Positions 18,147 to 23,806 of a stretch of 64,000 nt of DNA are shown here, one piece after another. Location: positions 1-64,000 of the IMG/VR virus record IMGVR_UViG_3300006175_000012; one strand, 5' to 3'. How positions within the stretch are numbered: position 1 is the stretch's first letter; each line of letters opens with the position of its first letter. A program made the position numbers and the translations under genes. The DNA comes from a virus. The notes beneath the pieces were generated by a model that was not told where the DNA came from, did not search any database, and saw only the letters and a list, made by a program, of their open reading frames with translations.

Positions 18147-18225
18147 TGAGTACATTGGTAGCGGGCCGCGCAATCGAGGACGCGGCGGTGCGGCGGCAGT
18201 GCAGTCCCGGCGAGGGGCAGGTGTC

Positions 18226-18906
18226 ATGGCGGTCGTGGTCGAACGCTGGACCGGGCAGCGCGCCTGCCTGCTGCAAGCCGCGCTGCGCGCCACCAACGAG
18301 TCCTTCGCGCACAGCCTCGGGGTCGCGGTGCGCACGGTGGCCGCGTGGCACGCCGAGCCCGCGCTCGTCCCGCGCGCCGAGGTGCAGCAGATCCTCGACA
18401 CCGCCCTGGAACAAGCCCCGGCGGCCGCCGTGCAGCGCTTCACGGCCTCGCTGTTCGGCCCCCTGTCCTACGAGCCCCCTGCGGCGGCCGCCGGCCCACA
18501 GGCCCTCACGGTCGCCGTCGCGGTCGTGCGGCATGAAGACGATGTGCTGCTGGTGTGCCGGCGCGGCGGCGAGCGCAGCGGGCTGCGCTGGCAGTTCCCG
18601 TCCGGGATCGTCAAGCCCGGCGCCGACCCGGCTGCGGTCGCGGTCAGCGAAACCCTCGCCGAGACCGGCGTGCACGCCGCCGTCCGCGAGAATCTGGGCC
18701 GCCGCGTGCACCCGCTCACGGGCGTCGTGTGCGAATACCTGCTGTGCGACTACCTGACTGGGCAGGCGCGCAACGCCGACACGCTGGAGAACCTGGACGT
18801 GGCGTGGGCGCCGATCGCTACGCTGGCGAAGTTCATCCCCCTGGAAGCCGTCTACCCGCCGATCCTTGACGCACTGGAGGCCGAGCGTGACCCAGCCGGA
18901 GACTGA
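18226..18906 (+). CDS. HTH-NUDIX fusion with degenerate NUDIX box
   Basis: 226 residues, ATG at 18226 with GAGGGG upstream. Residues 8-60 (QRACLLQAALRATNESFAHS, TVAAWHAEPALVPRAEV) look like an HTH, and residues 95-225 are a NUDIX fold. The NUDIX box reads GIVKPGADPAAVAVSETLAE then TGV: of the consensus G-x5-E-x7-REUxEExGU, the first E is A, the R is S and one E of EE is A. Hydrolysis is therefore doubtful and a ligand-sensing regulator is possible. pSAM2 Pif, a NUDIX protein, gives transfer immunity; a related role is inference. Confidence 0.7.
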   Translation: MAVVVERWTGQRACLLQAALRATNESFAHSLGVAVRTVAAWHAEPALVPRAEVQQILDTALEQAPAAAVQRFTASLFGPLSYEPPAAAAGPQALTVAVAVVRHEDDVLLVCRRGGERSGLRWQFPSGIVKPGADPAAVAVSETLAETGVHAAVRENLGRRVHPLTGVVCEYLLCDYLTGQARNADTLENLDVAWAPIATLAKFIPLEAVYPPILDALEAERDPAGD

Positions 18907-19318
18907 GCCGACCAGCGCGCTGGCAGGCAGGCCGCCGATCGCCGCCGCCGTCATCGTCAAAGACGGACGCGTGCTGCTCGTGCGGCGCCGCGTCGCGGAG
19001 GGCTCGCTGTCGTGGCAGTTCCCGGCCGGCGCGATCGAGCCGGGGGAGAGTGCGCAGGACGCGGCGGTGCGCGAGGCACGCGAGGAAACCGGCCTGGACG
19101 TCGAGGCCGAGGCGCTGCTGGGGGAGCGCGTGCATCCGGCGACCGGGCGGCTGATGGCGTACGTCGCGTGCGAGGTCGTCGGCGGCCAGGTCAAGGTAGG
19201 CGACCCGGAGGAGATCGACGCAGTTACCTGGGCGCCGCGCGACCAGCTCGCCGAACTCGTACCGTATGGGTTCTTCGCCCCGGTGCAGACGTACCTGGAC
19301 GACGCGCTGGCACGCTGA
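18887..19318 (+). CDS. NUDIX hydrolase with intact box
   Basis: 143 residues, GTG at 18887 with GGAGG upstream, overlapping the HTH-NUDIX gene by 20 nt. The box GAIEPGESAQDAAVREAREE then TGL fits G-x5-E-x7-REUxEExGU exactly, so it should bind metal and hydrolyse a nucleoside-diphosphate-linked substrate. Its partner has lost the same residues, which suggests an enzyme plus an inactive paralogue as sensor or regulator. Confidence 0.8.
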   Translation: MTQPETEPTSALAGRPPIAAAVIVKDGRVLLVRRRVAEGSLSWQFPAGAIEPGESAQDAAVREAREETGLDVEAEALLGERVHPATGRLMAYVACEVVGGQVKVGDPEEIDAVTWAPRDQLAELVPYGFFAPVQTYLDDALAR

Positions 19319-19603: not shown

Positions 19604-19689
19604 GCGGCAAGGATCCGGCCGCCGCGGCGGCCCTCGCGCGGCTTCACCGACCCGCGACACTCGATCGGGCGAACAAACGCCCAGCGCGC

Positions 19690-20160
19690 CACCATGCCTG
19701 CCGCGCCCTGCCTTGCGGTGCCGTAACGAGCCGAACCTAACCTCGCCTGCCATGCCGAGCCCGGACATGCCGAGCCGAAACGGGCCATAACGCATCGCGC
19801 CAAGCCACGCCTGCCACGCTGTCCGCGCCGTGCCCCGCCTAGCCGGGACACACCAAACCCCGCCCTGACTGCCATGCCCTGCCTAGCCGCTCCCTGCCGC
19901 ACCGGGCCCGTCCGTGACGCGCGGAGCCATGCCTGCCGTGCCACACCTGGCGATACCTCGCCTAGCCACGCCTGCCAAGACCTGCCATACAGGGACCTAC
20001 CGTGCCGAACCCCGACAACCCAAGCCGTGCCTGCCGTGCCCTACCTAGCCACGCCTAACCGGGCCGGACCGGAACTAGCCTGGCCCTGCCGGACCTGCCA
20101 GGACATGCCCCGCCTCGCCGCGCCTCGCCTCGACGCGCCTATCCATACCACGCCTGCCAT
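19690..20160 (-). repeat. Pentamer-repeat tract (GGNNN periodicity), about 470 bp
   Basis: This is the longest stretch without a gene (19604-20165). On the minus strand GG recurs at a 5-nt step for most of its length with occasional phase slips, e.g. GGCGTGGTATGGATAGGCG and GGCGTGGCTAGGTAGGGCA. Common pentamers are GGCAN, GGCGN, GGCTA and GGCAT; no long unit repeats exactly. It begins 5 nt after the stop of the gene at 20166, so it may be the 3' part of that transcript. Reading frames inside are broken by stops, with no ribosome-binding sites. The role is unknown: structured RNA, protein-binding array or DNA element. Positions 19604-19689 hold nothing recognisable. Confidence 0.8.
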
Positions 20161-20165
20161 GAGCG

Positions 20166-20588
20166 CTAAGCCGCCACATCCTCGCGCACCATGTCCAGGA
20201 ACTCCTGAAACTCCTGATACCGCCGGTACAGCGCCTTCCACTCCCGCTCCATCGCCTGCAACACCAGTTGGCGGCGGAACGGATCGTCTCGCACTTCCTC
20301 GGCCGGGTCGAACACATGCCCGTCCCCGGACGCCGCGGCCACGAACGCCCGCACCGAACGCGCCGGCCCCGACTCGTCGGCTTCCCTGTAGACCAGCCGG
20401 ACACTGCGGATCAGCTCCCCGGCCTGGTGCAGCCGGTACGCCTCCCCGGCCACCGCGTCGTCCCACTCGAACCGCGAGTGCAGCGGATGCCCGGGGTCGC
20501 GGGCCGTGTCCACCACGGCCTTCTTCGACAGGACACCGTCGTACTGCTTGCGGATCTCCAGCAACTCGGAACGCAGGTCGGTGCTCAC
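20166..20588 (-). CDS. Cassette gene B: conserved-looking unknown protein (140 aa)
   Basis: GTG at 20588 overlaps the stop of gene A (GTGA). It reads as one domain: helix (LRSELLEIRKQYDGVLSKKA), HPLHSRFEWDDAVAGEAYRL, strand IRSVRLVYREA, a variable loop, SVRAFVAA, then EEVRDDPFRRQLVLQAMERE and a C-terminal helix. I recall similar two-gene pairs in phages and plasmids of other bacteria, but I cannot name the family. The tight coupling to gene A and the repeat tract right after it suggest that all three work together. Confidence 0.65.
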   Translation of the reverse strand: MSTDLRSELLEIRKQYDGVLSKKAVVDTARDPGHPLHSRFEWDDAVAGEAYRLHQAGELIRSVRLVYREADESGPARSVRAFVAAASGDGHVFDPAEEVRDDPFRRQLVLQAMEREWKALYRRYQEFQEFLDMVREDVAA

Positions 20589-21220
20589 GCCGCCACCAGT
20601 TCCCGCGTGCCGCGCACCACGTCCACCGGGCGCTTCGGGTCCAGGATGTAGGTGCCGAAGTCCCCGTCCTTCTCCGGCCGCCACTCGCCGACACCGACGC
20701 CCGTGCCGCCCGCCTCGATGAGCGAAAGCACCGAATCCTGCGTGAGCGCCGAGGTCACGTAGGTGACTTCCAGCGTCGCCGTCCACGGCAGGAACTGCGG
20801 CCGGTAGCGCAGATCCGAGCCGTTGCGCCCGACCGTGACCACGTCCTCGCGCATCTTCGGCTCCCCGACGATGCGCACCAGCCCGCGCCCGTCCGAGCCG
20901 ATCTCGCCGCGGAAGAACATGTACTGCTTGAGCGCGGTCATCGTGACGGCGGAGAAGAACCTGGCGCCGCTGACCGTGGCGGCCTTGAAAGCGAGCGCGG
21001 GAAAGCCGTAGCCGCCGTCTTCGAGGCGGTAGAACGCGGCCTCGTATTCGGCTTCGGGGTTCTTGTTCTGCTTGGGCGACTTGCGGCCCTGCATGTTGTC
21101 CAGCATCTGGCGCTTGGCCTTCTCGCTGAACTTGTGGACGATCAGCGGCGCCGTTCCCGCGATGGGAACGAGGATCGTCTCGGTGCCGATCCGGCTGATG
21201 TTGATGGTGGCGTCGGCCAT
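20585..21220 (-). CDS. Cassette gene A: unknown protein, possible RAMP-like features (211 aa)
   Basis: Start ATG at 21220 with AAGGGGA upstream (an in-frame ATG at 21265 is less likely). The N-terminus (ISRIGTETILVPIAGTAPL, IVHKFSEKAKRQMLD) and the middle (YGFPALAFKAATVSGARFF) are followed by LVRIVGEPKMREDVV, DLRYRPQF, VTYVTSALTQDSVLSLIEAG and a glycine-rich turn GGTGVGVGEWRPEKDGDFG (171-189). The FPALAFKAATVSGAR segment plus glycine-rich C-terminus vaguely recall RAMP/Cas7-type folds; that is a hypothesis. It has no nuclease or ATPase motif that I can see. Confidence 0.65.
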   Translation of the reverse strand: MADATINISRIGTETILVPIAGTAPLIVHKFSEKAKRQMLDNMQGRKSPKQNKNPEAEYEAAFYRLEDGGYGFPALAFKAATVSGARFFSAVTMTALKQYMFFRGEIGSDGRGLVRIVGEPKMREDVVTVGRNGSDLRYRPQFLPWTATLEVTYVTSALTQDSVLSLIEAGGTGVGVGEWRPEKDGDFGTYILDPKRPVDVVRGTRELVAA

Positions 21221-21262
21221 GGCTGTCCCCTTGGGAATGTGGAGGGTCTGTTTCAGCCGCTC

Positions 21263-21385
21263 CATGCCACGAACCGTGTGAGCAGTATAGGAGATACAGT
21301 GCGAACGTACGCAAGAAACCGGCGGCGGCAGTGCGTAGCGTGCGGTTACATGCCACGAATCGACTTGCTTGTCACTGCCGCCGCC
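21263..21385. promoter_or_regulatory. Divergent regulatory region of the repeat cassette
   Basis: Contains a minus-strand TATACT (21289-21284) as likely -10 of gene A, two copies of CATGCCACGAA (21263-21273, 21349-21359) and a perfect 13-bp inverted repeat (GGCGGCGGCAGTG at 21321-21333, CACTGCCGCCGCC at 21373-21385). The region separates gene A from the plus-strand gene at 21400 and is dense in possible operators for its size. Confidence 0.55.
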
Positions 21386-23029: not shown

Positions 23030-23806
23030 GTGACCGACTCGACAAGCCTCGGCGATCGCATGAAAGCCTACGAGGCGCCCTGGAAACTTACCTTCCCCCG
23101 CCGCCTGCCGCTCGTGATCCGGGTCGACGGCCGGGCGTTCCACAGCTACCTGCGCGGCGCCGCGAAACCGTTCGACATGCCGTTCGTCGAGGACATGGCC
23201 GAAGTCGCCAAGACGCTGTGCGCTGAGATCTCCGGCGCGGTGTTCGCCTACCATCAGAGCGACGAGATCAGCGTCCTCGTGCAGGACTGGGCGTCCACCA
23301 CCACCGAACCCTGGTTCGCAGGCGAACTCCAGAAGATCGTGTCGATCTCCGCCGCCATCGCCACCAGCGCCCTGACTTCACGCCGAGGCGGCCGACCCCT
23401 GTTCGACGCCCGCGCATTCGTGCTGCCCAACCCCGTCGAAGTCGCCAACTACTACCAATGGCGGCAGCGCGACGCCGTGCGCAACTCGATCAGCATGGCC
23501 GCGCAGGCACACTTCAGCCACAAACGGCTACAGGGCGTCAGCGGCGAGCAGATGCAGGAATGGCTGTTCCAGGAGAAGGGCGTGAACTGGAACGACTACC
23601 CCGCCGAGTGTCGACGCGGGCAGGTCGCGGTGAAACGCTCGGGGGAGCGCGAAGTCACCTACACCGACAAGCGGACGAAAACCGAGTGCACGACGCTCGC
23701 GCTGCGCTCGTGGTGGGACGTGGAGCCCGCACCCCGGTTCACCGCGGAGCCGGGCGGGTTCCTCGCCGAGACTATCCCGAGCATGCCCGCGCTGGCCGCC
23801 GCATGA
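23030..23806 (+). CDS. thg1: Thg1-like tRNA guanylyltransferase/RNA 3'-5' polymerase
   Basis: 258 residues, GTG at 23030 with GGAGGAACCT directly upstream. Catalytic motifs of the Thg1 family are visible: RVDGRAFH (31-38, aspartate 33) and YHQSDEISVLV (74-84, SDE at 77-79), plus FSHKRLQG and the conserved PxxxxNYYQWRQRDAVRNS region. Thg1-like proteins add nucleotides 3'-5' to tRNA(His) or repair truncated tRNAs. Here it is the first gene of a coupled operon with RlaP- and PNK-like proteins, so repair is more likely than host tRNA(His) maturation. Confidence 0.9.
   Translation: MTDSTSLGDRMKAYEAPWKLTFPRRLPLVIRVDGRAFHSYLRGAAKPFDMPFVEDMAEVAKTLCAEISGAVFAYHQSDEISVLVQDWASTTTEPWFAGELQKIVSISAAIATSALTSRRGGRPLFDARAFVLPNPVEVANYYQWRQRDAVRNSISMAAQAHFSHKRLQGVSGEQMQEWLFQEKGVNWNDYPAECRRGQVAVKRSGEREVTYTDKRTKTECTTLALRSWWDVEPAPRFTAEPGGFLAETIPSMPALAAA

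Follow-up and report, generated by a model that had tools for sequence, protein, structure and literature searches.

A probable VIPR locus in a viral genome, with a candidate guide against its own promoter

The locus described here, which comes from a soil virus, very probably encodes a VIPR system, and one of its predicted guides likely reads the promoter of the system itself. VIPR is a recently described relative of CRISPR that combines the Vipr protein with an accessory gene (vap) and with guide RNAs in which GGY and NN alternate (PMC13142463, a 2026 preprint to which we refer for its main text). According to this source, VIPR represses phage genes, some of its guides attack other VIPR systems, and its guide RNAs (vrRNAs) hold 9-16 repeats each, in a guide region flanking vipr. 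Since the system is described there, the view of a first-pass annotation of this DNA, which took the locus as a candidate undescribed system, no longer holds. Beyond the main text of the preprint, our analysis adds independent support for the rule by which the guides are thought to read DNA, and a candidate self-guide at the -10 box of the vipr promoter. It is an independent test of the new noncontiguous guide code, based on sequence alone and on a clade distinct from that of SUSP1, the characterised system; likely natural targets were recovered within rival VIPR loci, and a simple regulatory circuit is proposed.

The window, by which we mean the whole stretch of 64,000 nucleotides that was analyzed, is part of a 65-kb virus record (IMGVR_UViG_3300006175_000012), and the closest named relatives of the virus are in Actinomycetes. 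A longer viral contig (L008, 109.5 kb) contains the same stretch with zero differences across 6.6 kb. On the minus strand, gene A is followed by gene B and then by a repeat tract running from 20158 to 19689 (Table 1). Both genes are open and overlap by GTGA, which confirms the first-pass description of two coupled genes running into a tract on the same strand. The tract was also correctly placed directly downstream of gene B, with its start lying about 8 nt past the stop codon instead of the 5 nt given at the time.

Table 1. Features of the locus, all on the minus strand; guide boundaries and NN dinucleotides are those of the HMM parse.
Feature	Coordinates	Strand	NN dinucleotides	Evidence or remark
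vipr (gene A), RAMP-fold protein, 211 aa	20585-21220	-		phrog_4652; match to SUSP1 Vipr; fold matches to Cas7/Csm3/Cmr
Putative vap (gene B), accessory protein, 140 aa	20166-20588	-		phrog_15946; adjoins A in 77/80 viral loci
Predicted vrRNA guide array, 8 GGYNN runs separated by GGCA	19689-20158	-		HMM parse; periodicity
Guide 1, 11 repeats	20100-20154	-	GT AT TA GC GA GA GC GA GG AT CT	HMM parse
Guide 2, 12 repeats	20036-20095	-	CC AG CA TA CC CC CC TA GT TA AG AC	HMM parse
Guide 3, 11 repeats	19977-20031	-	AC TT TT GG TC AC AG CC AT AG TT	HMM parse
Guide 4, short, self-matching, 7 repeats	19938-19972 (core 19948-19972)	-	GT TA GA AT CA GT AC	Shared by the clade; match to own promoter
Guide 5, 12 repeats	19874-19933	-	AT TC GC AC CG CC GC AG GC TA AG AT	HMM parse
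Guide 6, 9 clear repeats and an irregular end	19816-19869	-	AG GG TT GT CC TA GG AC GC	HMM parse
Guide 7, 12 repeats	19752-19811	-	GT TT GC GC AT CC TC TC AT CG TC AT	HMM parse
Guide 8, 9 repeats	19703-19747	-	GA TA TC TC AC AC AA AG GC	HMM parse
vipr promoter -10 region TGTATCTCCTATACT	21284-21298	-		Predicted guide 4 target TGxATxTCxTAxAC, 10/10 NN positions
Conserved leader block GTTCGTGGC	21262-21274	-		Invariant in all seven clade members

Gene A, which carries a glycine-rich stretch (GVGVGEWRPEKDG), matches phrog_4652 (E 1.4e-40), a phrog of unknown function; searches of Pfam, NCBIfam and PADLOC with this gene gave nothing usable, with no match in Pfam or PADLOC. A profile of 78 homologues of A retrieved one convincing solved protein, the SUSP1 Vipr in PDB entry 36pp (E 9.9e-11), and, when applied to the SUSP1 genome, it also locates Vipr there (E 1e-13, L083:28477-29079). 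Around SUSP1 Vipr, the parser that was used on the window returned four guide runs, equal to the number in the preprint (PMC13142463). The AlphaFold model of A (pLDDT 86) gave 51 matches at E <= 1e-3 in a fold search, and the 50 that were listed are all PDB structures containing RAMPs of CRISPR class 1 or related systems. Judged by profile and by modelled fold, gene A is a Vipr protein with a RAMP fold, homologous to SUSP1 Vipr.

Gene B matches phrog_15946 (E 2.2e-30), also of unknown function. Its Pfam matches were below threshold, PADLOC returned none, and a fold search yielded no confident match and some weak winged-helix-like ones. As the gene occupies the place of the accessory gene beside vipr, we refer to it as a putative vap.

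The periodicity of GG at 5-nt steps within the tract reaches a score of 39, whereas 500 dinucleotide shuffles average 3.5 and do not exceed 14; the score stays at or below 9.8 in the rest of the window and at or below 8 in 26 unrelated phage loci. When parsed with an HMM, the tract resolves into units of GG, a pyrimidine and NN, with a 4-nt GGCA interrupting them every 35-60 nt. The 5-nt step of GG had been recognized in the first-pass annotation, which described a pure pentamer tract; the step stands, and the pure pentamer gives way to GGYNN units broken by GGCA. The eight resulting runs have 11, 12, 11, 7, 12, 9, 12 and 9 repeats, so that seven of the eight guides fall between 9 and 12 repeats and guide 4 has 7. 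When 536 runs of the window and of related loci are taken together, 96% of units have C or T at position 3, all four bases occur at the NN positions, and the 4-nt unit is by far most often GGCA (569 cases, compared to 27 for the next commonest). No credible Rfam match was found in the region, no terminator by consensus scan and no CRISPR-type repeat in the tract. We also considered the tract as one large structured RNA, a reading that was dropped because the whole tract folds no better than its shuffles. By analogy with the described system, the tract may be regarded as an array of programmable guide RNAs whose NN would specify DNA targets, beyond a periodic binding scaffold only. The earlier idea of a periodic array bound by the proteins is thereby retained in part: a 5-nt array fitted to an oligomeric RNA-binding protein agrees with it, while its role as a mere scaffold is replaced by that of guides.

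We inspected 80 viral loci with a homologue of A and found gene B in 77 of them. A strict periodicity score was passed by 66 of the 80, always with GG on the strand of A, compared to none of the 26 control phage loci. Among the remaining 14 loci, the HMM parse detected a guide in 10, and the other 4 end less than 600 nt after A. Overall, a guide on the same strand is present in all 76 loci that have room downstream of A. As for false positives of the parser, 0.45 Mb of control sequence contained 6 runs of at least 5 units and no run of at least 9 units. Relatives were found in phages of Mycobacterium, Gordonia, Pseudomonas and cyanobacteria, and in genomes of Streptomyces, Thermoactinospora, Varibaculum, Alphaproteobacteria and Clostridia. 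These sequence comparisons support A, B and the tract as one conserved unit across unrelated phages and bacteria. The first-pass annotation had mentioned similar pairs from unrelated bacteria and phages and had proposed looking for a tract downstream of each, with a wide occurrence of the pair lacking the tract as the result that would speak against a unit. Since relatives were found in both phages and bacterial genomes, that statement was right; the 76 loci provide the downstream tracts, and no such wide occurrence was seen among the 80 viral loci.

The locus shares with the VIPR systems of the SUSP1 phage and of a Pseudomonas fulva prophage, as presented in the main text of the preprint, the Vipr RAMP protein, the adjacent accessory gene and the location in a viral genome, as well as same-strand intergenic GGY/NN guides and a 1-nt skip with wobble alignment (PMC13142463). 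Unlike in these two systems, the guides of the window form one continuous run, with a 4-nt GGCA between them and no conserved tail. Two further differences are that gene B is unrelated in sequence to SUSP1 vap1, and that one guide of the window matches the promoter of its own locus. Seven VIPR types (I-VII) are distinguished, based on the phylogeny of Vipr, the layout of the vrRNAs and the vap gene. In type II VIPR, the vrRNAs are separate and each ends with an invariant structured 3' tail, whereas other types have staggered overlapping arrays (PMC13142463). The type II layout was not found in the window, where the guides are joined by GGCA and tailless; given the arrays described for the other types, this excludes the type II layout and not VIPR. 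With the CRISPR class 1 effectors (the Cas7, Csm3 and Cmr RAMPs of types I, III and VII), the system shares the RAMP backbone fold and a periodic protein-RNA register. However, the locus lacks CRISPR repeats and cas genes, its register is of 5 nt and not 6 nt, and its pairing would be noncontiguous.

According to the rule given for VIPR, NN dinucleotides pair with double-stranded DNA and a single target base is skipped between pairs (PMC13142463). A set of 382 distinct guides was compared to 0.94 Mb of locus sequence in which the tracts had been masked, allowing skips of 0 to 3 bases. With the threshold set at fewer than 0.01 chance matches expected per guide, skip 1 gave a match for 8 real guides compared to 2.2 per shuffle set (approximately 3.6-fold). 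The same threshold returned 2, 0 and 2 guides at skips 0, 2 and 3, respectively, and one of the two skip-3 matches is a tract self-match missed by the masking. Among the targets of the real guides are a ParB-like gene and vap genes belonging to other loci. One guide reads as YDLKEFAEIM, a vap peptide conserved in rival loci, a second as the vap peptide SPLHSLFEWDD and a third as the ParB-like SIAEFGFNVP, with the skip at the wobble base. The two guides directed to vap have 6 and 7 mismatches in their own locus compared to 2 and 4 in the rival vap. Although the numbers are small, this family-wide enrichment independently supports the published 1-nt-skip rule at the sequence level, and the matches agree with the guides against other VIPR systems reported in the main text of the preprint (PMC13142463).

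The guides at L037:1594 and L019:4062 spell conserved peptides encoded by the vap genes of rival VIPR loci, and could act against many VIPR systems at once. Among the guides of the window, a scan of the viral collection with one block of 16-18 bases each from guides 1, 2, 3, 5 and 7 returned only chance-level matches. The best external match is that of guide 1 (20 out of 22 bases, L102:7512-7544, in L102/L103), which lies in frame within the gene of a phage protein and has the wobble base at the skip; it is suggestive, being not significant for the size of the database. No match of guide 7 with up to 3 mismatches was found in 395 genomes of the class to which the Thermoactinospora genome belongs.

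A different explanation of the GGYNN tract is that it works as DNA, as a protein-binding array such as a partition site, a replication origin or a packaging site, with A and B as DNA-binding proteins and no guide RNA involved. Such an array could well adjoin the genes, be G-rich and have no coding potential, as the tract does, and the weak winged-helix-like matches of B would suit a DNA-binding protein. This explanation is nevertheless very improbable, because A is homologous to Vipr, a guide-RNA binder, and has a RAMP fold. Moreover, the variable NN and the turnover of guides between close relatives fit a sequence that encodes specificity and not a fixed site, and at skip 1 there are guides that match coding genes of rivals.

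Within the VIPR array, guide 4 is the only guide common to the whole clade of the window, and almost all the rest have been replaced by turnover. From the first five NN of guide 4 (GT TA GA AT CA), the target TGxATxTCxTAxAC is predicted; in each of the seven clade members, it is matched at 10 of 10 coding positions at the -10 box of the vipr promoter. The motif TGNATNTCNTANAC is found over the TATACT box, 79-100 nt upstream of A or of the point at which homology to A begins, once per coding strand in the window and in L001-L005, and nowhere else on that strand in the 80 loci. The seventh member, L134, which came from a second search, likewise has TGNATNTCNTANAC upstream of A, and the promoter motif is unique within the window. 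Over the 14-nt promoter core, the seven members vary only at skip positions 3, 9 and 12 and the ten NN positions are constant; the chance that three variable columns of 14 all fall on skips is about 0.01. Across the clade, the core of guide 4 also varies at non-NN positions only. When all loci are considered, 10 five-NN matches to the own promoter are detectable at skip 1, compared to about 1 for shuffles, and 2, 1 and 1 at skips 0, 2 and 3. Six of the ten are the guide of the window clade, and the own-promoter matches of other clades showed no excess over shuffles.

Because the NN of guide 4 match the vipr-vap promoter of their own locus at the -10 box, we infer negative autoregulation. On this sequence pattern, the VIPR system of the clade probably carries a dedicated shortened guide for its own promoter, read through the noncontiguous code, which would establish an autoregulatory circuit. 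We hold this as likely and not as near certain because the self-match spans only 5 NN (10 bases), the seven members are related and hence do not represent seven independent events, and the -10 box places its own constraint on part of the promoter core. As the NN of the guide core do not change, guide and promoter show no covariation, and an extension of the self-match to the sixth NN, sought by eye, does not hold across the clade. Neither self-targeting nor autoregulation comes up in the main text of the preprint (PMC13142463).

Even with VIPR as the correct assignment, the match of guide 4 might be coincidental or reflect a promoter motif that is conserved, with the short guide being a structural element of the array (hairpin GGCGA-GGYA-TCGCC). 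The hairpin forms in the predicted fold; however, this fold is no better than those of shuffles (z -1.3), and in L134 the stem is altered (TCGCC to TTGCC) while the NN are kept. Each shuffled set of all loci yields about one five-NN match to upstream regions and the -10 box does constrain part of the core, but the variation of the promoter is confined to skip positions, the motif occurs once in the window, and the guide matching the promoter is precisely the conserved one. We therefore consider this account unlikely. It is also rather doubtful that guide 4 serves superinfection exclusion, being directed to the vipr promoters of rival viruses from within the clade, with the match to its own promoter as a side effect. 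Guides against other VIPR loci were found here and in the main text of the preprint (PMC13142463), and the same target is common to all clade members. Yet a guide that acted strongly in this way would also shut down the locus that carries it, whereas a short guide whose match ends at five NN is what would be expected for tuned self-repression. Superinfection exclusion and self-regulation by guide 4 are not exclusive, and both can hold together.

Our analysis shows the protein family and fold class of A, the architecture of the array, the conservation of the unit, the enrichment under the decoding rule, and the self-match together with the way in which it varies; the mechanism that we propose draws partly on the preprint and partly on our own inference. 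The array would be transcribed on the vipr/vap strand and processed into vrRNAs, each coated by Vipr subunits at about one per GGY-NN repeat, with B as a putative accessory protein. Pairing of the NN dinucleotides with double-stranded DNA would leave out one target base between successive pairs, and the complex, once bound, would keep rival mobile elements from being transcribed. Guide 4 would limit the expression of Vipr by negative feedback, by analogy with CreR for cas genes. CreR and CreA are crRNA-like RNAs that repress cas or toxin promoters (reviewed in PMC12737573). Here as there, a guide of the own effector is partly complementary to a promoter of the locus, with autorepression being predicted in our case; the effector and the code are different, guide 4 lies inside the array, and the evidence comes from sequence alone. 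If the self-guide represses vipr, feedback by partially matching guides would recur across RNA-guided systems, and the same feedback would be present in CRISPR itself and in proposed relatives of the CRISPR ancestor.

The control region of A contains the three elements listed in the first-pass annotation, namely the TATACT box (21284-21289, minus strand), a 13-bp inverted repeat upstream of vipr (arms 21373-21385 and 21321-21333) and the direct repeat TTCGTGGCATG; no sigma-70 -35/-10 pair was detected by consensus scan. The block GTTCGTGGC lies just downstream of the vipr -10 box, in the same place in L001-L005 and L134, and is a candidate operator for B or another regulator. The 13-bp inverted repeat (21321-21385, minus strand) lies upstream of the vipr promoter, on either side of TCGATTCGTGGCATGTAACCGC. 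In L001 (approximately 2830-2900), the arms differ in sequence and again form an inverted repeat, with the central block TCGATTCGTGGCATGTAACCGC kept; in the viral collection, this block occurs only in the virus of L001 and in that of the window. Two neighbouring NUDIX-domain genes lie just past the array (18199-18906 and 18866-19318, plus strand), and the virus record also contains a gene for Thg1, the tRNAHis guanylyltransferase (23030-23806, plus strand).
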